A stretch of DNA of 64,000 nt. It comes from Paludibacteraceae bacterium (GTDB taxonomy: Bacteria > Bacteroidota > Bacteroidia > Bacteroidales > Paludibacteraceae). Under the pieces are notes generated by a model, which was not told the origin of the DNA, made no database searches, and worked only from the letters and a program-made list of their open reading frames with translations. Position 1 is the stretch's first letter. Each line of letters begins with the position of its first letter. Of the stretch, positions 31,511 through 62,444 are shown one piece after another. The stretch covers positions 124,001 to 188,000 of the forward strand of contig JAGCWA010000017.1 in assembly GCA_017962085.1 (NCBI GenBank), in the 5' to 3' direction. Both the position numbers and the translations under genes were made by a program.

Positions 31511-32326
31511 TCATGCCGGTCGTTCCACCAACAGTTCATACGCTTCGCTGATCCGTTGGAACTTTTCCGTGGAGATTTTCAGTTCCTCGTCGGATGCATC
31601 GATTTGTCTGTCCGGGTGGTATTGCATGGATAGTTTGCGGAAAGCGTTTTTGATCTCTTTCTCGGAGGCGTCGGGGGAGACGCCCAAAACATCGTAGGCC
31701 CAATTCTTAGACGAGGAGTTTTCTTTGCCGGACGTGGATTTGTACGAATTATTGCGGGATGAGTTCGTCTGCTGTTTGCCTGTGTTCTCCCAAGTGAAAC
31801 CGTATGCGAAATAGCCGCGCTGGCGGTCGAAGTCCACCTGTTTGATGCAGGCGAAGCGGGCGTACATCTCAATGACCTTCGCCTCCGCTTTTTCGATACG
31901 GGAGTCGACGACCGCGATTTCGAATAGGGTGGTGAGCAGGGCGAGCCGTTGCTTGTATGTCAGGTGTTGGTTCAATTGCAGGCAGAAGGGCCTCAAATCC
32001 TTTGGGACAGGCTCTTTTACCCATTGGGACATCATAGACAATATTGAACGGGCATCCTCCTCCTCGAAATATTGGGACAGGTATTTCTTGGCCACGTTCA
32101 GTTCGCTTTTCGTCGCCTTCCCGTCCGCGACCATCACAGCGCTTAGCAATCGTGCCACGCTGTCGAAGAGGAGGGTGTATTCCGTGAAAGCTCCTCTATC
32201 CAAGTTGGATTTCTTTGAGCTCTTGCCGTTCCCTGCAGTCTTCGCAGTTTTTTCGTCGTTGTCGGACGTTAGCCATCCCAACGAATAAAAAACCATGATG
32301 AGGATTATGATTGCTATGATGGGCAT
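31511..32326 (-). CDS. DjlA-like membrane-anchored TerB-J co-chaperone (solo relative of the 50-62 kb array)
   Basis: 271 residues. Membrane helix ~3-18 ([17 protein letters not shown]), basic linker, TerB domain ~48-165 ([20 protein letters not shown] and [20 protein letters not shown] carry the acidic repeat residues), Ser/Asn/Lys linker, and a C-terminal J domain ~205-271 with [20 protein letters not shown] and HPDR. This is the normal DjlA layout and length; J-domain proteins of this kind stimulate DnaK at the membrane. It follows the barrel gene by 6 nt and precedes clpS by 76 nt, linking a chaperone cofactor to proteolysis genes. Confidence 0.85.
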
Positions 32327-40382: not shown

Positions 40383-40388
40383 GCTCAA

Positions 40389-44421: not shown

Positions 44422-44434
44422 AAAAGTACAAGAG

Positions 44435-45742: not shown

Positions 45743-45762
45743 TCCCTAATGAAGACCCTTGT

Positions 45763-47266: not shown

Positions 47267-47845
47267 ATGTCCAGTAGTAACACCATCGTTGGATCCAAAA
47301 TCAAAGGGATTAGGGAATCCAAAAACATCTCCATCGAGGAGATTTCCGAACGCAGTGGTCTTTCCACAGACCAAATCATCTCAATCGAGAACGATCAATA
47401 TTTGCCCTCTTTGGGTCCGTTGATTAAGATTGCGAGAGCGTTGGGTGTGCGATTGGGTACTTTCTTGGACGATAATGACGAATTAGGACCTGTTGTTTGC
47501 CGCGCTGAGGAGCGCAACAGCAGCATTAGCTTCTCCAACGGAGCGACCGACGCAAGAAAGCACATGGAGTACCACTCCCTCGCTAAGCAGAAGGCGGGAA
47601 GGCACATGGAGCCTTTCATCATCGACATCCAACCTGATGAGGAGAGGAACTTCAAATTGTCCGCACATGAGGGCGAGGAGTTCATCTATGTCATGGAGGG
47701 TGAAGTCGAAATCGAGTACGGCAAGGAGAAGTATAACCTGAAGGTGGGTGACAGCATTTTCTACGATTCCATCGTGGAACATCACGTTCATGGCGCGACC
47801 GGAAAGTCCGCTAGGATCCTCGCTGTCGTATATACTCCATTCTAA
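47267..47845 (+). CDS. XRE-family regulator with C-terminal cupin
   Basis: 192 residues: helix-turn-helix ~8-62 (IKGIRESKNISIEEISERSG, LSTDQIISIENDQYLPSLGP) and a cupin sensor ~105-190 (EGEEFIYVMEGEVEIEYGKE, VGDSIFYDSIVEHHVHGATG). It sits 12 nt before the acyl-CoA synthetase, which it probably regulates in response to a fatty acid or acyl-CoA; the effector is unknown. Confidence 0.92.
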   Translation: MSSSNTIVGSKIKGIRESKNISIEEISERSGLSTDQIISIENDQYLPSLGPLIKIARALGVRLGTFLDDNDELGPVVCRAEERNSSISFSNGATDARKHMEYHSLAKQKAGRHMEPFIIDIQPDEERNFKLSAHEGEEFIYVMEGEVEIEYGKEKYNLKVGDSIFYDSIVEHHVHGATGKSARILAVVYTPF

Positions 47846-47857
47846 TTCTTTACAGCT

Positions 47858-49510
47858 ATGCAACAGTTATCAGAAAGGACATTGGGGCAGTGGCTCGAGT
47901 ATTGGGCGGAGAAAACCCCAGATAAGGAATATATCGTCTATTCGGACCGTGACCTCCGTTTCACATGGAAGGTCTTCAACGAACGTGTGGACAACTTGGC
48001 GAAAGGTCTGATCTCCATCGGTGTGAAGAAGGGTAGTAACGTGGGTATCTGGGCGACGAACGTGCCGGATTGGCTCACCTTCCTCTACGCTACCGCTAAG
48101 ATCGGTGCGGTGCTCGTCACCGTAAACACCAACTACAAGCAAAACGAGTTGGAGTATCTCTGCGAGAACTCCGATATGCATACGCTCTGCATCACGAACG
48201 GAACATGGGAGTGCGACTACGTCGACATGACCTACAAGATGTTGCCGGAACTGAAGAACTGCGAGCGCGGTCATCTGAACAGCAAGCGTTTCCCTTACAT
48301 GAAGAACGTCGTGTACATCGGCCAAGAGAAGTATAGGGGAATGTACAACACGGCTGAGTTGCTGTTGCTCGGAAAGAACATCGACGACGAGCAGCTCAAC
48401 GAGATGAAGAAGAATGTCTCTTGCCACGATGTGGTGAACATGCAATATACATCCGGCACGACGGGCTTCCCGAAGGGTGTCATGCTGACGCACTATAACA
48501 TCTCCAACGATGGTTTCTTCACAGGAGAGAACATGCGCTTCACGCAGGATGACAAGCTTTGCGTCTGCGTGCCTTTGTTCCACTGCTTCGGCGTGGTGTT
48601 GGCCACGATGAACTGCCTCACGCATGGTTGTACCCAGGTGATGGTGGAGAAGTTCGATCCGTTGGTAGTGCTGGCATCCGTCCATAAAGAGCGTTGTACG
48701 GCTTTGTACGGTGTGCCGACGATGTTCATCGCTGAATTGAACCATGCGATGTTCAGCATGTTCGACATGAGTTCGTTGCGTACGGGTATCATGGCGGGCT
48801 CGCTCTGCCCTGTGGAGCTGATGAAGCAGGTGAGCGAGAAGATGTACATGACCATCACGAGCGTCTATGGTTTGACGGAGAGCTCTCCGGGTATGACACA
48901 AACCACTCTCGACGACAGCTTCGAGGTGCGTTGCACGACGGTGGGTCGCGACTATCCGTTCGTCGAGGTGAAGGTGATCGACCCAGAGACAGGCGAGGAA
49001 TGCCCTGTAGGTGTGCAAGGCGAGATGTGTTGCAAGGGATTCAACGTCATGAAAGGCTACTACAAGAATCCTCAGGCCACGGCCGAGGTGATCGATAAGA
49101 ACGGATTCCTCCACTCCGGAGATTTGGGCGTGAAGGACGAGAACGGCTACTACCGCATCACAGGTCGTATCAAGGATATGATCATCCGTGGAGGTGAGAA
49201 CGTTTATCCGCGTGAAATCGAGGAATTCCTCTACCACATGCCAGGTATCAAGGATGTGCAGGTGGCTGCCGTACCGTCGAAAAAGTACGGAGAGGAAGTG
49301 GGCGCCTTCATCATCCTCCAGGAGGGTACGAAAATGGATCCGGAGGATGTGCGCGACTTCTGCAAAGGGAAGATCGCCCGCTATAAGATTCCTAAATATG
49401 TCTTCTTCATCGACCAGTTCCCATTGACGGGATCAGGCAAGATACAGAAGTTCAAGCTGAAGGAAATGAGTTTACAGCTATGCGAGAAAATGGGCATAGA
49501 GGTAATTTGA
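47858..49510 (+). CDS. AMP-forming acyl-CoA synthetase
   Basis: 550 residues of the ANL superfamily: A3 loop [21 protein letters not shown]5 [14 protein letters not shown]7 [20 protein letters not shown]8 hinge [20 protein letters not shown] and the A10 Lys in [13 protein letters not shown]. Activates medium- or long-chain fatty acids. In an operon with the XRE-cupin regulator. The 3' end overlaps the queH start by 31 nt. Confidence 0.93.
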
Positions 49511-50127
49511 TCAACTACCAGAAGAAGTTAGACCAAATCATAGAGGCATGCGTCCGAGAAGGACGCGTGCCTTCGTTGTTGTTGCACAGTTGCTGCGCGC
49601 CTTGTAGCAGCTACACGATCGAATACCTCTCCCAATACTTCAAAATCACCGTTTTCTACTATAATCCGAACATCTACCCAGAAGAAGAATTCTCCAAGCG
49701 CGTGGAGGAACAGAAAAGGCTCATCAGCCAAATGCCTACCCGCCATCCCGTCTCCTTCATCGAAGGGACGTACGATCCGAAGGAATTCTACGCCGTGACC
49801 AAAGGATTGGAGCATGAACCCGAAGGAGGCTTGCGCTGTACGGAATGTTTTAGGCTCAGGCTGCAAAAAACCGCCATTCTATCGAAAGAAAAAGGGTTCG
49901 ACTACTTCACCACCACCTTGACGATCAGTCCACTCAAGGATGCGGCGAGATTGAACGAAATCGGCGATGAAATGGGCGAAAAATACGGGATCAGCTTCCT
50001 TCCTTCCGATTTCAAGAAGCGGGGAGGCTACCAACGATCCATCCAATTGTCCAAAGAGTATGATCTCTACCGCCAAAATTATTGCGGATGCATATTTTCC
50101 CAAAGAGGGACGGAGGAGGGAAAATAA
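49480..50127 (+). CDS. queH: Epoxyqueuosine reductase QueH (DUF208)
   Basis: 215 residues. Last step of queuosine tRNA modification, replacing QueG. Motifs: [20 protein letters not shown] near the N-terminus, [70 protein letters not shown] and YCGCIFSQ. The Cys set fits a 4Fe-4S plus adjacent metal site. The ATG at 49480 overlaps the synthetase gene; GTG or TTG starts a few codons later are possible. Confidence 0.92.
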
Positions 50128-50468: not shown

Positions 50469-51500
50469 ATGAACATACTTGAAATAGTATTTCTTATCGC
50501 AGTCGTTATCGTACTTACGGTTATGATAATAAAGGCTAAGAGCGACCCAGAATCTGAATACCACTCAATAGGCGAAACCCCCAATATTAAAAAGAAGGCC
50601 ATACGGGAAAGACAAATCTTTTTCAATGATGATCCGAATGACAAGAAGCTATATCTGGCGGCGCTCTCCACGATTGCCCTATTCTCCTGGGTGATGCGAA
50701 GGGATGGATCCGTGGACAAACGGGAAATGGACGTGGCGAACCTCTATTTCCGCACTCATATTCGGTACAACATCATCCTCTCTCATTATTTGCGCCAAAA
50801 GGAAGATCCTATTCTCGGTCAGAACCACTACACCCGTCGTCGATGTGAGGAACTTCTGAATTACTACAATTCGGTTCCGCGAATGCTAAGCCACATCCAA
50901 TGCTGTGAAAATATAAATAGGGCCGATATCTATTACGAAGCGGCAGTAGATCTCCTGAAGGCACTCTTCCAAGTGGCGTATACCAGTGATGGTGTCATCG
51001 GTTCCGAAAAGGAGATCCTCTATGAGATCGCCCAAAAATTATGGATCAAGCAAGAGGATTGGGAGACATTGTCGCAGAAATATGGGTTCTATCATAAAGA
51101 ACAACAAGAGAATAATAAGAAAGATTACAGTAAGAACACGAACTGGACCAAATATAGTTATTACGACTACTCAAAAGAGGAGAAAACCTCTTCCGACACA
51201 TACAAGAATTTCGATGAATTCGCCCAAAATCGCAAAAATGAGGAGTCAAAACAGCAAGAGGAGCAAACGAAAAAATCCTCTACCTTCGGCTATAAACTGA
51301 CACAAGCCTACAACCAATTAGGAATCCTCAGCACCGCCTCCGAATCGGACGTCAAAAACGCCTACCGTTCCTTGGTGAAGAAATACCACCCAGACCGCTT
51401 ACCGTCCGAGGCGACCGACCTCGACCGGAAGATTTCGGCGGAACATTTCCAGCTGGTCAAAGAGGCTTATGACCTCATCTGCTTGGAGCGTGGATTATAA
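50469..51500 (+). CDS. TerB-J array protein 1: membrane-anchored TerB-like/J-domain co-chaperone
   Basis: 343 residues. Membrane helix ~4-22 then positive charge, so the rest is cytoplasmic. TerB-like region ~62-200: LAALSTIALFSWVMRRDGSV with acidic partners, an insert with RRRCEELLNYYN (C126) and HIQCCENI (C145-C146), then LFQVAYTSDGVIGSEKEIL. Linker ~210-268 rich in K, Q, N, S. J domain ~271-343 at the C-terminus with AYNQLGILSTASESDVKNAY and HPD at 307-309. It presumably stimulates DnaK at the inner membrane. Closest to array protein 2 (shared TRRRCEE, YYNS and KYGFY). Confidence 0.85.
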   Translation: MNILEIVFLIAVVIVLTVMIIKAKSDPESEYHSIGETPNIKKKAIRERQIFFNDDPNDKKLYLAALSTIALFSWVMRRDGSVDKREMDVANLYFRTHIRYNIILSHYLRQKEDPILGQNHYTRRRCEELLNYYNSVPRMLSHIQCCENINRADIYYEAAVDLLKALFQVAYTSDGVIGSEKEILYEIAQKLWIKQEDWETLSQKYGFYHKEQQENNKKDYSKNTNWTKYSYYDYSKEEKTSSDTYKNFDEFAQNRKNEESKQQEEQTKKSSTFGYKLTQAYNQLGILSTASESDVKNAYRSLVKKYHPDRLPSEATDLDRKISAEHFQLVKEAYDLICLERGL

Positions 51501-51523
51501 AAACCCACTGGGAGCATCCCCCG

Positions 51524-51555
51524 TTTGGCAATAATACCACATATGTTTATATTTG
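51524..51555 (+). promoter_or_regulatory. Predicted promoter of array gene 2
   Basis: TTTG 51524-51527, 20-nt spacer, TATATTTG 51548-51555; 34 nt before the ATG. Confidence 0.75.
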
Positions 51556-51589
51556 CGTTATATTCATCATTCCTAATCATATATTCTCC

Positions 51590-52660
51590 ATGCCGAGCGA
51601 TGTACTTGCACATTTGATATTTTTCACTCCCCCCATCATACTTCTTTCATTCGCAATATATAACATGGTTAACTGGAAGAAGAATCGCTTGGAATATGAA
51701 AAAAAGATGTTCTACACAGCACCAATCCCTCCATTAAAAAATCCAACCAAAGGCATAAACAGGAAAAGACAGATTTTTGATCATAAGTACCAGACTCACA
51801 GCATATTCTATTATGAGGCGGCACTTTCCGTTATCGCCCTATTTTCCTGGGTAATCAAAAGGGATGGCGTGGTGGACGAACGGGAAATGAAGGTGGCGAA
51901 GCTCTACTTTAATACATACAAGCGCTATAATATACTCTTTTCGTACCATAACAAGAGGACGGAGGATCCTATTGCGGGTAAGCCTCACAGAACACGTCGC
52001 CGTTGCGAGGAGATGCTGAAATACTACAACTCCTGCGCTAATCTGCTGCACTACAAGCAGTGCTGCGCTAACATCATAAAGGTTGGTATTTTTTATGAGG
52101 CGGCATTGGAGCTGCTGAATACGTTGTTCCAGGTGGCCTACTCCAGCGACGGCGTGATCAACGCCGAGAGGGAGATCCTCCGTGAAATCGCCCAAGAGCT
52201 GGGAATCAAAACAGCGGATTGGATGGAATTGTCGGAAAAGTATGGATTCTATCGTGCGGATTCCCAAAAGGAGAATCGGGAAGATCCAACAAAGAATACG
52301 AACCGGACAAGGTATAGCCAATACAATTCCTCTAGAGAGGGGAAATCCTCCTCTTATACGTATAAAAACACCGATGGATTCGGCCAAAATTACCAAAAGA
52401 AGGAGTCGAAACAACAGCGGGAAGAGACAAAGAGATCTTCCACTTTCGGCTACAAACTGACACAGGCCTACAACCAGCTGGGACTCCTCACCACCGCCTC
52501 CGAAGCGGAGGTCAAGAACGCTTACCGCAAGTTGGTGAAGAAGTACCACCCCGACCGCCTGCCGAGCGACGCGACCGACATGGACCGAAAAATTTCGGCG
52601 GACCAGTTCCGACAGGTGAAGGAGGCGTATGATTTGATTCGGTTGGAACGTGGAAAGTAA
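51590..52660 (+). CDS. TerB-J array protein 2
   Basis: 356 residues. Membrane helix ~8-27 (LIFFTPPIILLSFAIYNMV), basic stretch, TerB-like region ~75-215 (ALSVIALFSWVIKRDGVVDE, CC at 158-159, TLFQVAYSSDGVINAEREIL), a linker with RYSQYNSSREGKSSSYTYKN, and J domain with HPD at 320-322 (LGLLTTASEAEVKNAYRKLV). Sister of protein 1 in the TerB part and part of the linker, and of the other members in the J domain. Gene 3 follows after 29 nt without a promoter, so genes 2 and 3 form one transcript. Confidence 0.85.
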   Translation: MPSDVLAHLIFFTPPIILLSFAIYNMVNWKKNRLEYEKKMFYTAPIPPLKNPTKGINRKRQIFDHKYQTHSIFYYEAALSVIALFSWVIKRDGVVDEREMKVAKLYFNTYKRYNILFSYHNKRTEDPIAGKPHRTRRRCEEMLKYYNSCANLLHYKQCCANIIKVGIFYEAALELLNTLFQVAYSSDGVINAEREILREIAQELGIKTADWMELSEKYGFYRADSQKENREDPTKNTNRTRYSQYNSSREGKSSSYTYKNTDGFGQNYQKKESKQQREETKRSSTFGYKLTQAYNQLGLLTTASEAEVKNAYRKLVKKYHPDRLPSDATDMDRKISADQFRQVKEAYDLIRLERGK

Positions 52661-52689
52661 AGTATTGATAATGAAATTATTGTATCAAC

Positions 52690-53661
52690 ATGGAATCTTT
52701 TAGTATTACATTTTACGTAAAAATAATAATTGCAATCATTGGCCTATATCTATTAGTGAGTTTCTATTTGAAAGGCGATGAAAAAAAGAAGAAGTCAGAA
52801 CAATTATTGGATAGGGATTACTACTTGATGACATGTTCTATTGTGGCCCTCTTTTCATGGGTCATCAGAAGAGACGGGGTAGTGGATGAAAAGGAGGTGA
52901 GGGCGGCCAGACTGTTTTTCGTAAAACATACGGAACTTGATGCTTTTTTGAAACGCTATTCCGGATACTTTTATAGAAAAGAAAAAGAAGATCCCGTGTC
53001 GGGGATTGCCCGACCTCATGTGGAAACCTGCATAGATTTACTGAATTACTATAACCAATGTGACAATCTGTTACATTACGATTTGTGTTGTGAAGATATC
53101 TGTCGAGTCTGTTATCATAGCCATCTTCAATCGTCTTATGGTTACGACTTTGTGGTAAAATTGATGAAGGCGCTTTTCCAAGTGGCATTCTCTAGTGATG
53201 GAGTGATTGGTTCGGAGCTGAAGATCCTCCTTGAAATTTCCAAATCCCTACGGGTGCCTGAGAATAAATGGAATACCATGGAACAGGTATACGAGTCGTA
53301 TCGCACCTATAAAAATGAACAAAGGCAGCAGAAAAGAAAGAAGAAGAGAGCGCGGAACGATTCGAAGCGGCAAGAAGAGAATAGCTCGGAGCAACAAAAA
53401 CAAAGTGATTCAAAGCAACAAAAACAGGGCGAGAAGTCCTCTTCTTTTGGTTACAAACTGACACAGGCCTACAACCAGTTAGGTCTCCTCACCACTGCTT
53501 CCGAATCGGAGATCAAAGAGGCTTATCGTACCTTGGTGAAGAAATATCACCCCGACCGTCTTTCGCCTGATGCCACCGACCTTGACCGTAAGATCTCGGC
53601 GGACCAGTTCAGGCTGGTCAAGGAGGCGTATGATTTGATTCGGCTGGAACGAGGGAAATGA
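52690..53661 (+). CDS. TerB-J array protein 3 (shortest pre-TerB linker)
   Basis: 323 residues. Membrane helix ~7-26 (TFYVKIIIAIIGLYLLVSFY), then only ~20 residues before TerB (CSIVALFSWVIRRDGVVDEK), so it lacks the long variable spacer of the others. ETCIDLLNYYNQ and HYDLCCEDICRVCYHS give the Cys cluster (CC 133-134) with extra Cys. LFQVAFSSDGVIGSELKILL follows, then a strongly basic/Gln linker (QQKRKKKRARNDSKRQEENS) and J domain with HPD at 287-289. No own promoter seen. Confidence 0.85.
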   Translation: MESFSITFYVKIIIAIIGLYLLVSFYLKGDEKKKKSEQLLDRDYYLMTCSIVALFSWVIRRDGVVDEKEVRAARLFFVKHTELDAFLKRYSGYFYRKEKEDPVSGIARPHVETCIDLLNYYNQCDNLLHYDLCCEDICRVCYHSHLQSSYGYDFVVKLMKALFQVAFSSDGVIGSELKILLEISKSLRVPENKWNTMEQVYESYRTYKNEQRQQKRKKKRARNDSKRQEENSSEQQKQSDSKQQKQGEKSSSFGYKLTQAYNQLGLLTTASESEIKEAYRTLVKKYHPDRLSPDATDLDRKISADQFRLVKEAYDLIRLERGK

Positions 53662-53749
53662 TAATTAAGAATTAAGAAACATTAGTCAATTTTGGGGATG
53701 TTTCCCTGTGCGAATCCTTGTGCGGTGGGTAACAAAAACGAGTGTGCCG

Positions 53750-53780
53750 TTTGGGAAGCGCTGTTGTTTGCTTATTTTTG
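53750..53780 (+). promoter_or_regulatory. Predicted promoter of array gene 4
   Basis: TTTG 53750-53753, 19-nt spacer, TATTTTTG 53773-53780 followed by TG; 34 nt before the ATG. Confidence 0.75.
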
Positions 53781-53814
53781 TGTCAGCATTAATTCCATGA
53801 TAGTTTAGAATGAT

Positions 53815-54954
53815 ATGTTAGGTGATAAATTCCATATTATCTATTTTTTCGCATCTTTAGTTCTTCCTTTTGTGGTGGCTTTTGCTATTCGTATCTTTGC
53901 TGATAAATGGGAAAACGAAAACAATCAGGGAAAGAAAACGTCGGGGGCATCTAAGACTGATGGATCCTCTAATAATTTCAAGGATAATAAATATAGCAGG
54001 GGTGGGTCAAACGACTATGGATACTCTTCCCGATTCACTTATAAATCCTGGGAGGAGGAGAAAAAGATCATATTCAACAAAAAGGCTGGTTCGTATATCT
54101 CGGTGGATTCCACGCTTTACAAAGCCACGCTCTCTGTCATCGCCCTGTTTTCTTGGGTGATCCGAAAAGATGGATCCATAGGCAAGCTAGAGATGGAGGT
54201 GGCTCGTTCCTATTTCGTAAGTCATCCCATCTACAGTGATATCTTGACTTTTTCTCCAAAGGACAAGGGCAATGATCCCATATCGAATTCCCCGCGTCAG
54301 TACATGGAGAATTGTATGGATCTGCTAAATTATTACAATCGCTCCTCGAAGTTGTTACGGTATGAGAAGTGTTGCCAATATATCAAAGAGGCTGATATCT
54401 ACTACATAGCGGCTTTCGACCTGATCAAGGCTCTTTGCCAGGTGGCTTACTCCAGCGATGGCGTGATCGACTCCGAGGCAGAACTCCTTTGTGGCCTCGC
54501 GAACGAACTGCATATCCGTCGTGAGGATTGGCTCAACCTCATGCAGATATATGGAATCGGCACGGGTACAGGACGAAAGAAAAAGCACGGATCTTCCCGG
54601 CGATACTACAGGAGAGAGAATGATAATACCTATGAACAGAAGAGAGAGAAAGATGATCAGGGAGAGAACCAGGAGGAGAAATGGTCGGATGACCAGCAGG
54701 AAAATAGAAATCAGGAAAATCGGCAGAAATCCTCTACTTTCGGCTTCAAACTAACGCAGGCATACAATGAGTTGGGCCTTCTCACCACCGCCTCCGAAGC
54801 GGAGATCAAAGAGGCTTATCGTACCTTGGTCAAGAAGTACCACCCCGATCGCCTTCCGCCTGATGCCACCGACCAGGAGCGGAAGATCTCGGCTGACCAA
54901 TTCCGACAGGTGAAGGAGGCGTATGATTTGATTCGACTGGAACGAGGGAAATGA
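53815..54954 (+). CDS. TerB-J array protein 4
   Basis: 379 residues. Membrane helix ~8-27 (IIYFFASLVLPFVVAFAIRI), a ~70-residue polar spacer (SKTDGSSNNFKDNKYSRGGS), TerB-like ~100-240 (KATLSVIALFSWVIRKDGSI, MENCMDLLNYYN, RYEKCCQYI at CC 186-187, ALCQVAYSSDGVIDSEAELL), an acidic/Gln linker (REKDDQGENQEEKWSDDQQE) and J domain with HPD at 343-345. The J-domain DNA and the first bases after the stop are very like gene 3, while the spacer is unrelated. Confidence 0.85.
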   Translation: MLGDKFHIIYFFASLVLPFVVAFAIRIFADKWENENNQGKKTSGASKTDGSSNNFKDNKYSRGGSNDYGYSSRFTYKSWEEEKKIIFNKKAGSYISVDSTLYKATLSVIALFSWVIRKDGSIGKLEMEVARSYFVSHPIYSDILTFSPKDKGNDPISNSPRQYMENCMDLLNYYNRSSKLLRYEKCCQYIKEADIYYIAAFDLIKALCQVAYSSDGVIDSEAELLCGLANELHIRREDWLNLMQIYGIGTGTGRKKKHGSSRRYYRRENDNTYEQKREKDDQGENQEEKWSDDQQENRNQENRQKSSTFGFKLTQAYNELGLLTTASEAEIKEAYRTLVKKYHPDRLPPDATDQERKISADQFRQVKEAYDLIRLERGK

Positions 54955-54961
54955 TAATTAA

Positions 54962-55100
54962 GAAACGCTAGTTCGACGTAGTCAATTTTGAATGTAAAAT
55001 ATTAAATCGTAAATCCAGACATGATACCTACAAACGGAACCGGTCATATGCCACCCGTTTCATCGGTGAAAACGGTATTTTTTGTATGTTGTGGACTATA
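54962..55100 (+). repeat. Intergenic duplicated unit A, copy 1
   Basis: Begins gaaacgctagttcgacgtag, continues with an AT-rich ATTTAC-family block (about 54990-55017), then ccagacatg, cctacaaacgg, accggtcat and tttcatcggtgaaaacgg. The same order of parts recurs at 56301-56450; the first part recurs at 60567 and, diverged, at 27328. Confidence 0.75.
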
Positions 55101-55143
55101 TTCACGGTCCGTATCGGGCGTTACGGGCTTAAACCGATAACAA

Positions 55144-55175
55144 TTTGGGAATGCCTCTTCGTTTATATATCTTTG
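55144..55175 (+). promoter_or_regulatory. Predicted promoter of array gene 5
   Basis: TTTG 55144-55147, 20-nt spacer, TATCTTTG 55168-55175 followed by TG; 50 nt before the ATG. Confidence 0.75.
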
Positions 55176-55225
55176 TGCCAATTGTAGCATAATGATGTGC
55201 AATATAAAACAGAACAGGTACAAAT

Positions 55226-56296
55226 ATGTATATGTTTTTATTCTTTCTATCTTTGATAGTGCTGATTGTTATATTCTACACTTTCAGTAGAAACAAGCGC
55301 AATCGTCAAAAGGATCCTTCGGAAGAGACCTCCCCTCGTAATGACGGGAAACAGAATAGATACTATTTCGAAGAACATGAATCGACAGCATTCAGGCAGA
55401 ATGCGTCCCGTAACAATTACCGGTCTGTTTCGAATAAATTACAAAAGAAATACATCTTTGTCGCAAAGGATGCTGAAATGCAATACACGGCTGCGCTCTC
55501 TGTCGTGGCTCTTTTTTCTTGGGTGATTCGCAAAGATGGATATGTGGGCGACCAGGAAATGGATGTGGCGCGCATATATTTCGAGCGGCATAATAGATTC
55601 AATAATATCTTGTCAAATCCTCCCCAAGATTTACAGATAGATCCTATAACGAATGCTCAGTGTTCCTTTTTGAAGATCCCCATGCGACTATTGAACGACT
55701 ATAATACCCTCCCGAAACTGTTGCGGTATGGCTTGTGTTGCCAGAATCTATTGGCCGCTGGGATATATTATGCGGCGGCTTTGGATTTGTTGAAGGCGCT
55801 TTTCCAAGTGGCCTATTCCAGCGATGGTGTGATTGATTCCGAGGCGGAGATTCTTCGTGGCATCGCAAATGAGCTGCGGATACGTGCCGAGGATTGGAAC
55901 GCCCTGCGACAGCGCTATGGAATGAATTGGGGTGCCAAGCAAAAGGACAAGGGTGGGGAGAATCAATCCCGAAAGAAAACGCAGGAGGAGAGGTGGTCGG
56001 ATCGATCCACTGGTCGGAATAATGGGAAAAAGGAGTACCAAAATAGTCAACAGGAACAGCCCCAAAAGTCTTCCACCTTCGGTTATAAGCTGACGCAGGC
56101 CTATAATAAACTGGGTCTCCTCACCACCGCCTCCGAATCGGAGATCAAGGAGGCCTACCGCACCCTGGTGAAGAAATACCACCCCGACCGCCTCTCGCCT
56201 GATGCGACCGACATGGAGCGGAAAATTTCGGCGGACCAGTTCCAGCTGGTGAAGGAGGCGTATGACCTGATTCGACTGGAAAGAGGGAGGGGATAA
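55226..56296 (+). CDS. TerB-J array protein 5
   Basis: 356 residues. Membrane helix ~3-20 right at the N-terminus (MYMFLFFLSLIVLIVIFYTF), basic SRNKRNRQK, spacer to ~85, TerB-like ~88-225 (ALSVVALFSWVIRKDGYVGD, PMRLLNDYN with no Cys at the third-Cys position, RYGLCCQNLL at CC 171-172, LFQVAYSSDGVIDSEAEILR), a linker with KKTQEERWSDRSTGRNNGKK, and J domain with HPD at 319-321, ending RLERGRG. Confidence 0.85.
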   Translation: MYMFLFFLSLIVLIVIFYTFSRNKRNRQKDPSEETSPRNDGKQNRYYFEEHESTAFRQNASRNNYRSVSNKLQKKYIFVAKDAEMQYTAALSVVALFSWVIRKDGYVGDQEMDVARIYFERHNRFNNILSNPPQDLQIDPITNAQCSFLKIPMRLLNDYNTLPKLLRYGLCCQNLLAAGIYYAAALDLLKALFQVAYSSDGVIDSEAEILRGIANELRIRAEDWNALRQRYGMNWGAKQKDKGGENQSRKKTQEERWSDRSTGRNNGKKEYQNSQQEQPQKSSTFGYKLTQAYNKLGLLTTASESEIKEAYRTLVKKYHPDRLSPDATDMERKISADQFQLVKEAYDLIRLERGRG

Positions 56297-56300
56297 TTTT

Positions 56301-56450
56301 GAAACGCTAGTTCGACGTAGTCAATTAAGAATTTTGAATGTAAAATAGTAAATCGTTAAATAGTAAATCCAGACATGCTGCCTACAAACGGGACCCGTCA
56401 TAAAACGCCCATTTTTATCGGTGGAAACGTCTTTTTTTATCATGAATCCA
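56301..56450 (+). repeat. Intergenic duplicated unit A, copy 2
   Basis: Same order as copy 1: gaaacgctagttcgacgtag, AT-rich block (taaatcgttaaatagtaaat), ccagacatg, cctacaaacggg, acccgtcat, atcggtggaaacgtc. The two copies differ mainly by small insertions in the AT-rich part. Confidence 0.75.
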
Positions 56451-56503
56451 TTCTGTCTTTAGCGTTGACATAATAATGGGGTGTGGAATAAAATAAGTGT
56501 CCC

Positions 56504-56535
56504 ATTGGGAATGCCCTTCTATTTGAGTATCTTTG
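56504..56535 (+). promoter_or_regulatory. Predicted promoter of array gene 6
   Basis: ATTG 56504-56507, 20-nt spacer, TATCTTTG 56528-56535 followed by TG; 41 nt before the ATG. The GGGAATGCC next to the -33 box is shared with gene 5. Confidence 0.7.
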
Positions 56536-56576
56536 TGGTATAATTGAAGTTAGACTAGAAATTCTGTTCCATAAAA

Positions 56577-57806
56577 ATGCTACGTTTTACACTTTGCACG
56601 TTTGGTTTGGGCGCGATCCTCCTTTCTATAGGTTTATTTGAATCTAGTGTTTTTTGTGTGATTCTGGGCATTTCATTTATCATTGCCTCTTTTGCCTTTA
56701 TTATGTTTCGGGTATCTGGTGATTCCAGTGAATCGATTGAGAAGGAGAAATCATCTGCAGAATCAAAAAAGGAAGAGCAGAACTCCAACGATAAAGGTGG
56801 GAGTAGTGAAAACACCTATCAATCAAATGCTGGGGCAGACAGTAACAGTGAGTGGTGGGAATATTACTCCTCCACGTCTGATTATGCGCCTATTCCTCCG
56901 AATAAATACGAATCGCAGGAAAGAAGGAAAAATATCTTTAACAAGACGTTATATTCTTCAAGTGCGGAAAAGACGACTATATACACCTCCGCACTTTCGG
57001 TCGTCGCTTTGTTCTCTTGGGTGATGAGAAAGGACGGGTCTGTGGGCAAGAGCGAAATGGAGGTGGTGCGTATGTATTTCAAAAAACACCCGATATACGG
57101 TGACATCTTCTCCTCTCCTCCGGAGGATTTATTGAAAGATCCGGTGTTAAATACCGAACGTCCTGCTTTTTACGGATATCTGGATTTGCTCGAGTACTAC
57201 AATACTTGTCCGAAGCTCTTGCGCTATGGCCTATGTTGCCACTATATCCTCATGTCCGACATCTATTACGAGGCGGCTCTGGATTTGCTGAAGACGCTTT
57301 TCCAAGTAGCCTATTCCAGCGATGGCGTGATCGATTCTGAGATGGAAATCCTTCATGGTATCGCCAAGGAACTGAAAATACGTCGTGAGGACTGGAATAA
57401 TTTCAAATATTCGTACGGATCATGTAAGAAAAGCCAGAATCGGCAGCAAAAGAAGAAAAAGAATAAATTCTCTGACGAATATGACAATTCCCAATGGAAG
57501 AGATCTCAGCAGAATCGTTCGGAAGATGCTAATAATCAGAACTATAATCGGTCAAAACAACAGCAGAAAGAGCAAAAGAAATCCACTACCTTTGGCTACA
57601 AGTTGACGCAGGCCTACAACGAATTGGGTGTCCTCACCACCGCCACCGAATCGGAAATCAAAGAGGCCTACCGTAACCTGGTGAAGAAATACCACCCAGA
57701 CCGCCTGCCGCCTGAAGCGACTGATCAGGAACGGAAGATTTCGGCGGACCAGTTCCGATTGGTGAAGGAGGCGTATGATCTGATTCGGTTGGAAAGAGGG
57801 AGGTGA
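56577..57806 (+). CDS. TerB-J array protein 6 (two N-terminal hydrophobic helices)
   Basis: 409 residues, the longest member. Two hydrophobic stretches, ~5-21 and ~26-44, unlike the single helix of the others, so its N-terminus is probably on the opposite side. A ~90-residue polar spacer (SESIEKEKSSAESKKEEQNS) precedes TerB ~137-280 (SALSVVALFSWVMRKDGSVG, YLDLLEYYNTCPKLLRYGLC, CC at 220-221, LFQVAYSSDGVIDSEMEILH). Asn/Gln/Lys-rich linker, then J domain with HPD at 373-375 (YNELGVLTTATESEIKEAYR). Confidence 0.85.
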   Translation: MLRFTLCTFGLGAILLSIGLFESSVFCVILGISFIIASFAFIMFRVSGDSSESIEKEKSSAESKKEEQNSNDKGGSSENTYQSNAGADSNSEWWEYYSSTSDYAPIPPNKYESQERRKNIFNKTLYSSSAEKTTIYTSALSVVALFSWVMRKDGSVGKSEMEVVRMYFKKHPIYGDIFSSPPEDLLKDPVLNTERPAFYGYLDLLEYYNTCPKLLRYGLCCHYILMSDIYYEAALDLLKTLFQVAYSSDGVIDSEMEILHGIAKELKIRREDWNNFKYSYGSCKKSQNRQQKKKKNKFSDEYDNSQWKRSQQNRSEDANNQNYNRSKQQQKEQKKSTTFGYKLTQAYNELGVLTTATESEIKEAYRNLVKKYHPDRLPPEATDQERKISADQFRLVKEAYDLIRLERGR

Positions 57807-57925
57807 CAATTAAAAGTTAAGAATTAAGAATTAATTGGTGTTGGGCGGATCCTCACATGATGCGCATACATGAATGATTTCCGTGAAATCGTAAATCATT
57901 AAATCGTAAATCCATTCATGTGCCT
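57804..57925 (+). repeat. Intergenic duplicated unit B, copy 1
   Basis: After the stop: gacaattaaaagttaagaat, later tcctcacatgatgcgcatac, atgaatgattt and a run of aaatcgtaaatc units. Closely matches 59141-59240. Confidence 0.75.
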
Positions 57926-57956
57926 TTGGGGATGCGCTTTTGTTTGTTTACCTTTG
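57925..57956 (+). promoter_or_regulatory. Predicted promoter of array gene 7
   Basis: TTTG 57925-57928, 20-nt spacer, TACCTTTG 57949-57956 followed by TG; 62 nt before the ATG. Confidence 0.75.
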
Positions 57957-58018
57957 TGGTGGTATTGATACTATCCTAACCTTAGATTAGTTGTGTTTAT
58001 TAAAAGATCTCTCAATAC

Positions 58019-59143
58019 ATGTATGCAATTTTATTTGCCTTTGTACTTCCATTCCTGATTCTGATTCTTACGCTCATATTGAATCGTGATGGAGAACCCT
58101 CGGAAACGAGTGATAAAAGTGCTCCGCAGGGAAACAATTCGACAGATAACACGCAAAACAAGACGCAGAACAAGACGCAAAAACAAAAGGCCTCTTCCCA
58201 TTATAGGAAAACAAAAGATAAGAGGAGCTTCGTCTTCAATCGGGATGCCATAGATTTCAAATTCGAGAACGAGAAACTATATTCCGCTGTACTCTCTGTC
58301 GTGGCTCTCTTTTCCTGGGTGATGCGAAAGGATGGAAATGTGGGTACGCTGGAGATGGATGTGGCGCATGCCTATTTCGCGCATCACCTCACGTTCCATA
58401 GGATTTTATCGCATCCTCCCCATAACATGATAAATGATCCTGTGACGGGAACCCTTCGTCTTGACACGAAGGATTGTATGGAGATGCTCGAATATTACAA
58501 CACCCTCCCAAGGTTGCTGCGGCATGGTAAGTGTTGTGGTAAAATCCTGGAAGCCGATATCTACTATGAGGCGTCATTGGACCTGCTGAAGGCGCTCTTC
58601 CAAGTGGCCTATTCCAGCGACGGGGTGATCGATTCTGAGATGGATATCCTCCGGAGCATCGCACAGGAACTGAAAATCCGTCGTGAGGATTGGAACAACC
58701 TGCAACGGAAGTATGAAACATATCAAGGATCGTATAAAAACAGGACGGACTCTTCTGGCCAATCTTCCGATGAAATGGGCAAAAAATCAAACAGAAAGAA
58801 AAAGAATCGGAGGAATAGACAGAGATGGAATGAATCGGAAAAATCTTCCGGACAAAATGAAGAGCGTAAGGAACAACAACAAAAGCAGGAGGAGCAACAG
58901 GGAAAAGAGCAAAGGAAATCCTCCACCTTCGGCTATAAGCTAACCCAAGCCTACAACGAGCTGGGTCTCCTCACCACCGCCTCCGAAGCGGAGATTAAGG
59001 AGGCTTTCCGTGCCTTGGCGAAGAAATACCACCCCGACCGCCTGCCGCCTGAGGCGACCGACCAGGAACGAAAGATCTCGGCGGACCAGTTCCGGATGGT
59101 CAAGGAGGCGTATGATTTGATTCGGTTGGAAAGAGGGAGGTGA
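58019..59143 (+). CDS. TerB-J array protein 7
   Basis: 374 residues. Membrane helix ~3-21 (AILFAFVLPFLILILTLIL), spacer with TQNKTQNKTQKQ, TerB-like ~87-225 (AVLSVVALFSWVMRKDGNVG, KDCMEMLEYYNT, RHGKCCGKIL, LFQVAYSSDGVIDSEMDILR), a very basic then Gln/Glu-rich linker (KSNRKKKNRRNRQRW, KEQQQKQEEQQGKEQRK) and J domain with HPD at 338-340. In the J domain AFRALAKKYHPD replaces AYRTLVKKYHPD, shared only with protein 8. Confidence 0.85.
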   Translation: MYAILFAFVLPFLILILTLILNRDGEPSETSDKSAPQGNNSTDNTQNKTQNKTQKQKASSHYRKTKDKRSFVFNRDAIDFKFENEKLYSAVLSVVALFSWVMRKDGNVGTLEMDVAHAYFAHHLTFHRILSHPPHNMINDPVTGTLRLDTKDCMEMLEYYNTLPRLLRHGKCCGKILEADIYYEASLDLLKALFQVAYSSDGVIDSEMDILRSIAQELKIRREDWNNLQRKYETYQGSYKNRTDSSGQSSDEMGKKSNRKKKNRRNRQRWNESEKSSGQNEERKEQQQKQEEQQGKEQRKSSTFGYKLTQAYNELGLLTTASEAEIKEAFRALAKKYHPDRLPPEATDQERKISADQFRMVKEAYDLIRLERGR

Positions 59144-59250
59144 CAATTAAAAATTAAGAATTAATGGGATGTGCATATCCTCACATGATGCGCATACATG
59201 AATGATTTTCGTAAATCGTAAATCGTTAAATCACAAATCTATCGATGGAA
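59141..59250 (+). repeat. Intergenic duplicated unit B, copy 2
   Basis: gacaattaaaaattaagaat, tcctcacatgatgcgcatac, atgaatgattt and aaatcgtaaatcgttaaatc, then atcgatggaaacgg, which also occurs in unit A. It shows that the duplicated segment included the 3' flank of the gene. Confidence 0.75.
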
Positions 59251-59315
59251 ACGGTATTTTTTGAATGATCGGATTCTCTCATGTGATAGATATAATCGTC
59301 AAAAAAGCAAGCACT

Positions 59316-59347
59316 TTTGGGATAACTCTTTTGTTTGATTACCTTTG
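59316..59347 (+). promoter_or_regulatory. Predicted promoter of array gene 8
   Basis: TTTG 59316-59319, 20-nt spacer, TACCTTTG 59340-59347 followed by TG, nearly identical to the gene 7 promoter. It lies inside the longest open frame (from 59265), so that frame's first 39 codons are not coding. Confidence 0.78.
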
Positions 59348-59381
59348 TGACAATAATGGTGATCAAGACATCCTAAAACAT

Positions 59382-60545
59382 ATGGGCGTATTAAAATTTT
59401 TTGTCTTACTTTTTATTTCTGTTCTCTATATATGGGTTCTTGCCGCCATTGGAATAAATGTCCCAAGAATACGTGATTATATCCGTATCCTTGAAAAGAA
59501 GATAATCCAAAGATTCTATAGCGAATCCACTCATGGAACTGATAGGTCTGCTCATAACACGTATGAATCTACTCATAAAACCAGCGAATCTACTGGAACT
59601 GAAAATACTTCATCGTATCATACCTATAAAAGTACAAATCCTAAGTACCAGAGGAGAATCGTCTTTGATACGCGCGCGGATGTGGATGAATCGGGGGAAC
59701 AAACGCTGTATGCCGCTGTTCTCTCCGTTATCGCCCTATTTTCATGGGTGATGCGAAAGGACGGAAGCGCAGGCAAACAGGAGTTGGAAGTGGCGCGTAT
59801 CTATTTTAGGAAACATCCCTTATTTACAGGTGTCTTGTCGTCTCCTCCCCAAGATCAGGTCAATGACCCGGTGACAAATACCCCAATCATCTCTTCGAAT
59901 GATTGCATGAAGTTACTTAGGTCCTATAACAAGCTTCCGAGGTTGCTGAAGTATAGCAAGTGCTGTGATAATATCATGGCGGCCAATATCTATCCGAGTG
60001 CGGCGCTGGATTTGCTGAGAATCCTCTTCCAAGTGGCCTACTCCAGTGACGGTGTGATCGAGTCCGAAATGGAGATTCTCCATGGCATCGCACAGGAACT
60101 AAAGATCCGTCCTGAGGACTGGAACAATCTGGTGCGGATGTATGGAACATATCGGGAACCGAATAGAGGGAAGAAATCTACGAATCAATCTGCTAATGAA
60201 AAAAGCAAGAAATCCAACAAGAAAAAGAAACGGAAAAATAGACAAAATGAGGATGAATCGGGAGGTGCTTCCGACCAAAACGAAGAGCAATGGAGTGACG
60301 AACAGGAACAGCACCAGAAATCCTCCACTTTTGGCTATAAGCTAACCCAAGCCTACAACGAACTGGGTCTCCTCACTACCGCCACCGAAGCGGAGATTAA
60401 AGAGGCTTTCCGTGCCTTGGCGAAGAAATACCACCCCGACCGCCTGCCGCCTGAGGCGACCGATCAGGAACGAAAGATCTCGGCGGACCAGTTCCGATTG
60501 GTCAAGGAGGCGTATGACCTGATTCGGTTGGAACGGGGGAGTTAA
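59382..60545 (+). CDS. TerB-J array protein 8
   Basis: 387 residues from ATG 59382 (MGVLKFFVLLFISVLYIWVL). The frame opens at 59265, but the promoter at 59316-59347 lies in between, and 59382 puts the membrane helix (~4-22) at the N-terminus as in the paralogues. Thr/Ser-rich spacer with a repeated HGTDRSAHNTYESTHKTSES-like pattern, TerB (AVLSVIALFSWVMRKDGSAG, NDCMKLLRSYNK, KYSKCCDNIM, LFQVAYSSDGVIESEMEILH), a linker with KSNKKKKRKNRQNEDESGGA, and J domain with HPD at 351-353, near-identical to protein 7. Confidence 0.85.
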   Translation: MGVLKFFVLLFISVLYIWVLAAIGINVPRIRDYIRILEKKIIQRFYSESTHGTDRSAHNTYESTHKTSESTGTENTSSYHTYKSTNPKYQRRIVFDTRADVDESGEQTLYAAVLSVIALFSWVMRKDGSAGKQELEVARIYFRKHPLFTGVLSSPPQDQVNDPVTNTPIISSNDCMKLLRSYNKLPRLLKYSKCCDNIMAANIYPSAALDLLRILFQVAYSSDGVIESEMEILHGIAQELKIRPEDWNNLVRMYGTYREPNRGKKSTNQSANEKSKKSNKKKKRKNRQNEDESGGASDQNEEQWSDEQEQHQKSSTFGYKLTQAYNELGLLTTATEAEIKEAFRALAKKYHPDRLPPEATDQERKISADQFRLVKEAYDLIRLERGS

Positions 60546-60566
60546 GAGTTAAGAGTTGAGAATTTT

Positions 60567-60591
60567 GAAACGCTAGTTCGACGCAGTCATT
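60567..60591 (+). repeat. Partial copy of intergenic unit A
   Basis: gaaacgctagttcgacgcag followed by tcatt. Only the first part of the unit is present, after array gene 8. Confidence 0.7.
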
Positions 60592-60664
60592 TGTGAATTG
60601 GGGGAATGTGCTTCCTTACCCAATGGCACGACTCACGGCCTGCAAGGACATTTCATTATCTAGT

Positions 60665-60681
60665 CCAGGGCAACACCCTGG
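60665..60681. repeat. Small palindromic element
   Basis: CCAGGG-caaca-CCCTGG hairpin in the gap between array gene 8 and the MmcQ-like gene. No T run, so not an intrinsic terminator; it resembles the dispersed palindromes common in this group of bacteria. Confidence 0.4.
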
Positions 60682-60803
60682 GGATTTAAAATTTAATCGA
60701 ATGTGTTCCCTACATGATGCGTACGACCCAACGACTCGAACGGAAAGGCGACTACGAACAAACCGATGACGTACATGAGCTTAGAATTGTGCTGTAAAGG
60801 AGA

Positions 60804-61151
60804 TTACCTCAGCCCCTCCCTCTCCTTCTTCGTCAATTTCTTGACCACTTCGTCGTACGAATGGTCCACGAGTTCGAGAATCAACTTATCACCTGCGTCG
60901 CTACCGAAATGGATTTGGTTCCAATACTTCTTGTTCCAATGAAATGCACCTTCGATGGCAGAATATCGTTCGCGGAGAATGACAGCACGTTCGGGGTCGC
61001 ATTTCATAACGGCACGTTCGGGATTACTCATTGCGATGCACGCAAAAATCTTGTTGCATACCCGAAACGTTAGCAAATCCTCGTCAAAAGGGAAATCCTC
61101 TGTGACACAAGGCTTTGAAAGGCAATATTCACGAAATTTTTCGATGTCCAT
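60804..61151 (-). CDS. MmcQ/YjbR-family protein
   Basis: 115 residues from ATG 61151 (MDIEKFREYCLSKPCVTEDF). CyaY-like fold of the MmcQ/YjbR family: FDEDLLTFRVCNKIFACIAM, VMKCDPERAVILRERY, AFHWNKKYWNQIHFGSDAGD and LVDHSYDEVVKKL. Family members are thought to bind DNA, but the function is unclear. It is the only minus-strand gene inside the array, between members 8 and 9; the extension to 61214 is not needed. Confidence 0.88.
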   Translation of the reverse strand: MDIEKFREYCLSKPCVTEDFPFDEDLLTFRVCNKIFACIAMSNPERAVMKCDPERAVILRERYSAIEGAFHWNKKYWNQIHFGSDAGDKLILELVDHSYDEVVKKLTKKEREGLR

Positions 61152-61383
61152 TTTTGGGGAGGGTGTTTTTATAGTGCAAATATAAAAATGATTATCAACC
61201 ATATCAACTTTCAAATCTGATTTTAACCAAGGCTTTTGTCAAACCTCGATAATCAATCTCTCAGTCAATTCGGCATAAACTCTCTTTCAATGTATAGTGG
61301 CGTTTACAAGTAGATTGACTCCTGCCGTAACAGACGTGGGGGATGGAACGACATCGGTGTGTGGAATAAAATCAAGCGCATCA

Positions 61384-61414
61384 TTTGGAATGCCTTCCCC
61401 TTTATTTATCTTTG
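61384..61414 (+). promoter_or_regulatory. Predicted promoter of array gene 9
   Basis: TTTG 61384-61387, 19-nt spacer, TATCTTTG 61407-61414 followed by TG. GGAATGCC after the -33 box is shared with genes 5 and 6. It lies inside the longest open frame (from 61359). Confidence 0.78.
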
Positions 61415-61448
61415 TGATATAATGTTTTTACTCATCAGGATTAAAGCG

Positions 61449-62444
61449 ATGTTGAGTGACTATTTGATATTTTTTGGGATCATTTGTATTGTCGTTATAA
61501 TTGAGGCTCTTTTTGCGTGGATACGTCCTGCCCAAAAGGTGAAAGATGTGTTCCATGATGTTGTCCTTGATCAGAATCCGCCCAAATCCGACGTTCCGAA
61601 CTATGAGCCTATTCCGCCCTTGATGGGCACCGGCCGCACGAATTCCAGAAGGAAGAAGGTCTTTCAAGGGAATTATCCGAGTGGGATGGAGGATGAGAAT
61701 ATCTATACGTCTGCTCTTTCCGTCATCGCATTATTTTCATGGGTGATCCGTAGGGATAAGGTAGTGGACCATCGGGAGGTGTCCGTGGCTTGGTTCTATT
61801 TCAAGAACCATCCGATATACAGAAATCTGCTGTGGTGCCGTCCAAGAGGGTTGCAGAAAGACCCCATAACGGGAGACAAGTGTCTCTATTCCAGTGAGTG
61901 TATGGAGTTGCTCCGGCACTACAATGATTCCCGGGAACTTCTCCGGTACAATCTATGTTGCCAAAACATCCTGAAGTCTGGTATCTTCTATGAGGCTGTC
62001 CTGGATCTGTTGAATGCGCTTTTCCAGGTGGCTTTCTCCAGCGATGGGGTGATTGGCTCCGAGATGGAAATTCTCTATGGAATCTCTATGGAGCTGAAAA
62101 TCAAGCAAGAGGATTGGAAAATACTGAAGCAAAAGTATAAAACGGCTAAAACAAAAAAGTCGGAGGAAACTGCGGGAAAGAAAAATAACGGCTCCTCGAC
62201 TTCGTCAAAGGGAAAGAAGAGCTCCTCCTATGGCTACAAACTGACGCAAGCCTACAACCAATTGGGGCTCCTCACCACCGCCTCCGAGGCGGAAATTAAG
62301 AATGCCTACCGCGATCTGGTCAAGAAATACCACCCCGACCATCTATCACCTGACGCCACCGACCTCGACCGAAAGATCTCGGCGGACCAATTCCAGCGGG
62401 TCAAGGAGGCGTATGATCTGATTCGGCTGGAAAGGGGGAGATAG
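61449..62444 (+). CDS. TerB-J array protein 9
   Basis: 331 residues from ATG 61449 (MLSDYLIFFGIICIVVIIEA). The frame opens at 61359 and has an ATG at 61422, but the promoter ends at 61414, and 61449 gives a normal leader and an N-terminal membrane helix (~5-22). TerB (SALSVIALFSWVIRRDKVVD, where the usual Gly after Asp is Lys; SECMELLRHYND; RYNLCCQNIL; LFQVAFSSDGVIGSEMEILY), a short Lys/Ser linker and J domain with HPD at 295-297, followed by His instead of Arg (HPDH). It is the array's edge copy and the most divergent around HPD. Confidence 0.85.
   Translation: MLSDYLIFFGIICIVVIIEALFAWIRPAQKVKDVFHDVVLDQNPPKSDVPNYEPIPPLMGTGRTNSRRKKVFQGNYPSGMEDENIYTSALSVIALFSWVIRRDKVVDHREVSVAWFYFKNHPIYRNLLWCRPRGLQKDPITGDKCLYSSECMELLRHYNDSRELLRYNLCCQNILKSGIFYEAVLDLLNALFQVAFSSDGVIGSEMEILYGISMELKIKQEDWKILKQKYKTAKTKKSEETAGKKNNGSSTSSKGKKSSSYGYKLTQAYNQLGLLTTASEAEIKNAYRDLVKKYHPDHLSPDATDLDRKISADQFQRVKEAYDLIRLERGR

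Follow-up and report, generated by a model that had tools for sequence, protein, structure and literature searches.

DjlA, a class C membrane J protein that serves as a co-chaperone of DnaK in Escherichia coli and Legionella, is the closest described relative of the proteins in this article. It is built from a membrane helix, a TerB-like domain and a J domain carrying the HPD motif. In the sections of the literature we draw on, the IgaA–RcsD membrane complex of E. coli is loosened by DjlA that has a functional J domain (PMC11709261, excerpt), and Caulobacter DjlA associates with AcrA in a manner that needs the HPD (PMC10754441, excerpt). Two questions are given as open: the role of the TerB domain and the means by which DjlA locates its clients (PMC11709261, excerpt). 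The locus we describe has not one gene of this layout but nine, side by side. Searches confined to CC-licensed papers, and not extending to the chief review on J proteins of bacteria (Barriot 2020), yielded no comparable system.

Nine genes with one layout

The original prediction for the window, by which we mean the whole 64,000-nucleotide stretch analysed, was of nine same-strand genes spanning 50469-62444, sharing one layout and interrupted once by a minus-strand MmcQ gene. All nine open reading frames lie where they were said to lie, on the plus strand, and the interruption is a YjbR/MmcQ-like gene (60804..61214, minus strand; Pfam PF04237, 1.2e-25). In order, the array genes are gene 1 (50469..51500, 343 aa), gene 2 (51590..52660, 356 aa), gene 3 (52690..53661, 323 aa, 29 bases behind gene 2), gene 4 (53815..54954, 379 aa), gene 5 (55226..56296, 356 aa), gene 6 (56577..57806, 409 aa), gene 7 (58019..59143, 374 aa), gene 8 (59265..60545, an open reading frame of 426 aa) and gene 9 (61359..62444, 361 aa). 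The common plan is an N-terminal membrane helix, a TerB-like domain, a polar linker and a C-terminal J domain with HPD, as had been claimed.

The profile models were unanimous about one end of these proteins. The Pfam DnaJ model (PF00226) scored 44.4-49.0 bits in all nine, over a curated cut-off of 27.8 bits. TerB (PF05099, cut-off 24.4 bits) was recovered in seven; gene 4 (22.2 bits) and gene 9 (15.1 bits) fell below the line, and both still align with the other array proteins. A profile search of solved structures matched the J domains alone and did not recover TerB. Identity to gene 1 runs from 44 to 59%, so the likeness is not a matter of chance. The HPD is present in every protein, and the acidic TerB positions D79, E86, D174-G175 and E180 (gene 1 numbering) are invariant across the array, together with a Cys-Cys pair. 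A simple Kyte-Doolittle scan found an N-terminal hydrophobic segment in each protein, with two segments in gene 6 and two in gene 9, where one lies at a doubtful 5' end.

These sequence models and the hydrophobicity scan uphold the predicted likeness to a DjlA-type membrane co-chaperone: one N-terminal helix, a TerB-like middle (sub-threshold in genes 4 and 9) and a J domain at the C terminus. DjlA (NF006948) was the top NCBIfam match in all ten proteins scanned, at scores short of the equivalog cut-off of 162 bits (52.9-77.5 over proteins of the window and of its own genome, 52.9-67.5 in six array genes). The same window holds a single DjlA-like gene outside the array (31511..32326, minus strand, 271 aa), which the original prediction did not list; it has the TM-TerB-J layout and scores 77.5 bits against NF006948.

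Seven of the nine genes each come with a promoter-like motif, which would allow them to be controlled independently. It lies about 66 bases upstream of gene 2, and at 53749..53782 for gene 4 (TTTGGGAAGC...TTTTTGTG), 55144..55177 for gene 5, 56505..56537 for gene 6 and 57925..57958 for gene 7, all on the plus strand. None was found for gene 3 in its 29-base gap. The open reading frames of genes 8 and 9 are probably over-long at the 5' end, because the motif common to genes 4-7 sits inside them in frame (at 59317-59336 in gene 8); likely starts would be near 59382 for gene 8 and at 61422 or 61449 for gene 9.

Many J proteins, one DnaK

The array turned out to be part of something larger. The source genome, at 3.37 Mb, has 27 J-domain matches over the cut-off, every one with HPD, most of them in tandem arrays of one layout. 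They comprise arrays of nine, 11 and three genes, two singletons, the DjlA-like gene at 31511-32326 and DnaJ. It has one full-length DnaK (HSP70). We looked for an expansion of Hsp70 in parallel with the J proteins and found none; each of 13 other genomes also has a single full-length HSP70. The type-B arrays carry an extra region between the membrane helices and TerB. By eye it seemed PH-like, an idea dropped after Pfam returned one weak PH match in one of 16 members.

The expansion of J proteins is restricted to few lineages. Counts of at least nine occur in three genera only among 200 genomes of the family, and the maximum among 394 other Bacteroidota genomes sampled was eight. The view that the expansion is lineage-specific therefore stands, and the expansion reaches beyond the nine genes: this genome has arrays of three classes, and two other genera have arrays of similar kind. 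Six of six other members of the genus that we examined lack an array at this site. The gene at its left border (49480..50127, plus strand), which we take from sequence recognition to be QueH-like (DUF208), is kept in species without the array.

Fronts and tails with different histories

The two ends of these proteins have not travelled together. Fronts track orthology between species, whereas among paralogues there has been some shuffling of J tails. The gene that matched best in J was also the best match in the front for 60 of 90 comparisons and for 52 of 64 (30 and 12 differed); a control segment within the front agreed in 88 of 90 and in 60 of 64 (two and four differed). Gene 1 illustrates the point: its front, to about 51315, shares 98-99% identity with a gene from another species, its J tail about 71-75%, and identity falls from 99% to 71% near the junction of linker and J domain. 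The J tail was lower by more than 0.08 in 12 of 53 close front pairs. Our count of array genes for this work was 41; another motif had given 34, missing seven members.

Silent changes tell a similar story. Among pairs picked by their fronts, dS was larger in J than in the front for 25 of 29 in type A and for 23 of 24 in type B. Choosing pairs by front identity biases front dS downward, so a further test was added with pairs chosen mainly by slot, and here J dS was higher in 16 of 16. Ten pairs came from the first slot, by synteny and front type, leaving out the two species that have the other front. The last slot gave six pairs, of which three include a gene assigned by similarity and not by contig end. 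In single-copy DjlA, near saturation and with five of seven sequences recovered, J dS was 0.884 against 0.699 for the front, and higher in six of ten pairs. Another single-copy control gave 0.285 for J against 0.352 for the front, with J higher in seven of 21 pairs. When pairs were instead selected for J identity of at least 0.93, front identity was at least 0.85 in 16 of 33 type-A and five of seven type-B pairs, so by that measure there is less shuffling in type B.

Concerted evolution of the J domains is only partial. The nearest relative of a whole J domain lay within its own genome in 10 of 41 and nine of 58 cases (label-shuffle means 5.4 and 7.5), and mean J identity is nearly equal within and between genomes (0.826 v 0.814; 0.774 v 0.777). 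The position of the front/J switch varies between 0 and 89 codons ahead of HPD, so there is no single boundary in use. The genomes are drafts of many contigs, in which repeats such as these may be prone to assembly chimeras.

The copies are retained, with the J domain conserved at the protein level: dN/dS is 0.33 and 0.39 for fronts and 0.10 and 0.20 for J, with 0.022 and 0.038 for two neighbouring genes, and there are no internal stops among the array matches listed.

What the array might do

Our preferred explanation, which we put at about even odds, is that the array is a repertoire of DjlA-like membrane adaptor co-chaperones through which a single DnaK is aimed at many clients in the membrane, and that gene conversion exchanges their J tails. 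The N-terminal helix would anchor each protein in the inner membrane, leaving the TerB-like domain and variable linker in the cytoplasm, where together with the helix they could engage one given membrane protein or state of the membrane. The J domain would then call in the sole DnaK and trigger its ATP cycle on the target. It is plausible, as originally predicted, that the copies differ in the membrane client or condition to which they bring DnaK. New copies would arise by tandem duplication and their fronts diverge fast, and paralogues would swap J tails through gene conversion or unequal crossing-over, so that the DnaK-binding end stays common to all.

A more prosaic possibility is that these are many copies of DjlA with one DjlA job, a redundant or near-neutral amplification at recombination-prone sites in which relaxed constraint let the fronts diverge. 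Front dN/dS of 0.3-0.4 would fit, as would an array copy number that ranges from four to nine among the relatives compared (three relatives' arrays are split over contigs, making their counts lower bounds), and three of 16 genomes of the genus manage with three or four J matches. We nevertheless consider it somewhat unlikely, given stop-free listed copies, HPD in 27 of 27 J matches, J dN/dS of 0.10-0.20, similar arrays in two other genera, and fronts with a partner of at least 95% in another species in 17 of 41 and 16 of 58 cases. Alternatively, each protein might tune a different sensor or efflux complex in a set devoted to envelope-stress signalling, acting as E. coli DjlA does on RcsD/IgaA and not as a folding helper. 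There are precedents among DjlA proteins (PMC10754441 and PMC11709261, excerpts), and the separate promoter-like motifs would suit such a set; next to the array, however, the window's list of open reading frames shows neither sensor kinase nor efflux genes, and we regard this role as improbable.

The least probable of the readings weighed is chaperone-based conflict or defence, with fronts recognising fast-changing foreign or phage membrane proteins and recruiting DnaK, and repertoires turning over between close species. In its favour, when six related species with 94-96% identity in housekeeping DNA were compared, one of the nine window fronts had a partner of at least 85%. There is also a hint of transfer between species, in front identities that exceed their background (98.9% vs 95.4% for one front; 97-99.8% vs 94.7-95.6% for type-B fronts). 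Yet support sought through PADLOC, phages and plasmids amounted to none. PADLOC models matched none of nine out of ten proteins and the tenth, from another genus, gave one weak Csm6 match (0.00097); the plasmid search had no match and the phage search one, to J only. The array is flanked by housekeeping genes and does not sit in a defence island, and front dN/dS is below 1. A bolder version of the repertoire idea is unlikely in our estimation: a recombination-fed modular set in which front cassettes that bind membrane targets pass between paralogues and between species and are joined to a shared tail that recruits DnaK. Each species would then have a repertoire of chaperone targeting that is its own and keeps changing, much like a combinatorial recognition set, and possibly directed against foreign membrane proteins.

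The arrays are a natural experiment: a single cell with one full-length DnaK combines J tails that are nearly alike with many fronts that have diverged, which opens to test whether it is the front that sets the target. They would show that a bacterial J-protein count near those of eukaryotes is reachable by tandem expansion, and that co-chaperone modules can evolve separately through recombination.

Comparison with known systems

Some members of the PHIST and RESA-like families carry a J domain. In malaria parasites, the PHIST-DnaJ/RESA-like proteins likewise feature an amplified helical domain (PMC4811531). They are exported proteins of a eukaryotic parasite, unlike those of the array, and we liken the two by description, not by sequence. 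Among bacteria with many J proteins a parallel is Myxococcus xanthus, whose genome is much larger than 3.37 Mb. It too has many J proteins per cell, 15 being predicted in strain DK1622, and two DnaKs have been studied there (PMC11019930, excerpt), compared with 27 J matches and one full DnaK in our 3.37 Mb genome. In layout, DjlA remains the closest relative. The array differs from it in having many diverged tandem copies, a longer spacer and linker, and fronts and J tails with mosaic histories.

The nine-gene array and its surroundings

All nine open reading frames of the original prediction are present, on one strand, at 50469–62444, and the layout ascribed to them holds: each has a hydrophobic segment near its N terminus and a TerB-like domain in the middle, and ends in a J domain bearing HPD. 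By domain HMM, DnaJ scores above the Pfam cut-off in nine of nine and TerB in seven. The interruption between genes 8 and 9 is indeed a minus-strand YjbR/MmcQ-like gene. The linker, described as charged and rich in Gln and Asn, fared less uniformly. Charged residues are abundant and Q/N abound in most, but gene 9 has just 8% Q/N (gene 4 lay outside the computation). Lys and Arg number 2–5 in the 15 residues past the first hydrophobic segment in eight of the nine, and 0 in gene 6, where the second hydrophobic segment is likely the actual membrane helix. We infer a cytoplasmic C terminus for the array proteins. The nearest named relative, at 55% identity, is a sheep-rumen Paludibacteraceae MAG (locus L058); a Cys-Cys pair (C145–C146 in gene 1) is invariant across the nine window proteins and seven relatives of L058.

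To the left lies XRE–AMP ligase–QueH, which is shared. Arrays of the same type, sought in relatives, follow QueH or precede suf genes in six related genomes (three split over contigs); in six other genus members read (nine searched, eight with a QueH match), no J protein follows QueH, and unrelated genes stand there instead. The protein adjoining the array (62602–63339), by eye four-helix-bundle-like at its N terminus and zinc-ribbon-like at its C terminus, has counterparts adjoining the arrays of L058 and another genome, G001 (L148). At 38745–40388 (minus) is what looks by eye like a C25 peptidase, gingipain-like and ending in a sorting tail at its C terminus.

Upstream of genes 4–7 stands TTTGGGAATGC...TTTGTG, a motif whose end is TAnnTTTG-like and which we take to be of the Bacteroidota promoter type. 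It recurs in frame within the 5′ ends of ORFs 8 (59317–59336) and 9 (about 61384), where it is read as protein, so the automatic starts there are probably wrong and the true starts probably lie downstream. Gene 2 has a related promoter-like motif upstream, a search upstream of gene 3 found none, and gene 1 has, by eye, just TATATTTG. Allowing at most three mismatches, the whole window holds six matches against 0.54 expected, five of them inside the array. Judged by these sequence matches, independent transcription is possible, and at least seven of the nine genes may be transcribed singly. In the genome's second array, on contig 57, TGCTAATTTTGAAAC stands immediately 5′ of the ATG in most genes.

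J proteins in the genome and the family

J-domain matches above cut-off number 27 in the genome to which the window belongs (59 contigs totalling 3.37 Mb, completeness 97%), and every one has HPD. They are the nine of the array, the DjlA-like gene elsewhere in the window (31511–32326, minus), 11 in the contig-57 array, a three-gene array on contig 25, two singletons and DnaJ. The contig-57 array (within 28001–48000) comprises 11 TerB–J genes with an extra region between membrane helices and TerB; we call its class type B and that of the window type A. Its flanks carry a long repeat-rich protein (BspA-like by eye) and a Sel1-like repeat protein. TerB is found genome-wide in 20 places at E ≤0.01, 13 above cut-off. 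HSP70 amounts to one full-length copy and one partial match within a 341-residue frame; 13 further genomes, expanded or not, have one full-length HSP70 each, plus other partial matches.

The counts support a lineage-specific expansion, as had been proposed. Among 200 genomes drawn from the family, at least nine J matches occur in 12 of 16 from the window's own genus, 4 of 6 and 9 of 9 from two other genera (g5 and g20), and nowhere else; the remainder have 0–8 each, mostly 1–5, and the highest count is at least 29. Across 395 Bacteroidota genomes, a sample without g5 and g20, this genome has at least 15 matches and the runner-up 8. TerB is paired with J in the g20 and g5 arrays read too. Two other species of the window's genus (G004, G003) have arrays (L155, L156, L157, L178) of membrane J proteins with nearly identical J tails, and Pfam detects no TerB in the five scanned: a different layout, same idea, same genus. 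In a J-domain tree of 92 rows the array classes fall into separate clusters, or very nearly (type A 99/84, g20 98/95, g5 100/97); because it rests on 66 columns, with J exchange within arrays, independent origins are unprovable from it.

Separate histories of front and J domain

We compared 41 type-A and 58 type-B genes from seven genomes, dividing each into a front (helix, TerB, linker) and a J domain. By front, the nearest relative lies within the same genome for 0/41 type-A and 1/58 type-B genes: the fronts predate the species. When J domains are compared instead, the counts are 10/41 and 9/58, against label-shuffle means of 5.4 and 7.5, so that whole type-B J domains do not exceed the shuffle; their last 40 codons give 16.9/58 (the mean of 7.5 being for the whole J, not that window). 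J identity between genomes is almost the same as within them, and adjacent genes are only marginally more alike (0.841 v 0.820; 0.784 v 0.771). Exchange of J domains among paralogues is thus real, yet partial.

Comparing front and J within the same genes is the firmer test. Where another genome holds a partner at least 0.85 identical to a front, that partner is also the best one for the J domain in 60/90 type-A and 52/64 type-B cases; for a control segment inside the front the figures are 88/90 and 60/64. Among 53 pairs with fronts at least 0.88 identical, the J tail is lower by >0.08 in 12. At synonymous sites the J domains have diverged by 0.363 and 0.341, the fronts by 0.154 and 0.121, and J is the higher in 25/29 type-A and 23/24 type-B pairs (non-overlapping pairs, 9/10, p 0.021, and 13/14, p 0.0018). 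Since these pairs had been picked on the front, we repeated the comparison with genes picked mainly by slot: J was higher in 16/16 (0.482 v 0.180). A single-copy gene control gave 0.285 in J v 0.352 in front (J higher in 7/21). A second control, the DjlA-like gene, taken from five of the seven genomes and near saturation, gave 0.884 v 0.699 (6/10), the same direction as the arrays with a far smaller lean.

Gene 1 is the clearest case of a switch. It is 98.9% identical to a gene of genome G010 across helix, TerB and linker, and 71–75% in the J domain; nearby housekeeping DNA is about 95% identical. The best switch point lies 24 codons ahead of HPD, near 51315. The gene 1 J tail is at most 0.79 identical to any other type-A J of its own genome, which makes a simple assembly join with a neighbour less likely. 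The G010 gene, for its part, has a J tail that by eye resembles the tails of first-slot genes in other species.

Values of dN/dS are 0.33 and 0.39 for fronts, 0.10 and 0.20 for J domains, and 0.022 and 0.038 for two neighbouring genes. The two modules are both retained, and the fronts evolve rapidly. J identity falls below the housekeeping background in 46/46 and 29/32 pairs and front identity mostly does (42/46; 24/32), exceeding it by >0.02 in 1/46 and 3/32. One of the nine window fronts has a partner of at least 0.85 elsewhere.

A proposed adaptor set and known J proteins

A membrane-fixed J protein works through bringing DnaK to a place. Twenty-seven J matches, mostly of one layout, beside one full DnaK fit a set of adaptors whose fronts differ and whose tail is common; such adaptors would act on membrane clients. 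The original prediction knew of no such system, and searches of a library of openly licensed papers turned up none on TerB–J arrays among the matches listed. In E. coli DjlA (PMC11709261), the J domain is required to loosen IgaA–RcsD, the helix is replaceable by another membrane anchor, the function of TerB is called undefined and the route to clients not known. Caulobacter DjlA associates with AcrA and requires HPD (PMC10754441). Of the six J proteins in E. coli, three are partnered with DnaK (PMC8215388); M. xanthus has 15 J proteins (PMC11019930), and the window's genome has 27 J matches.
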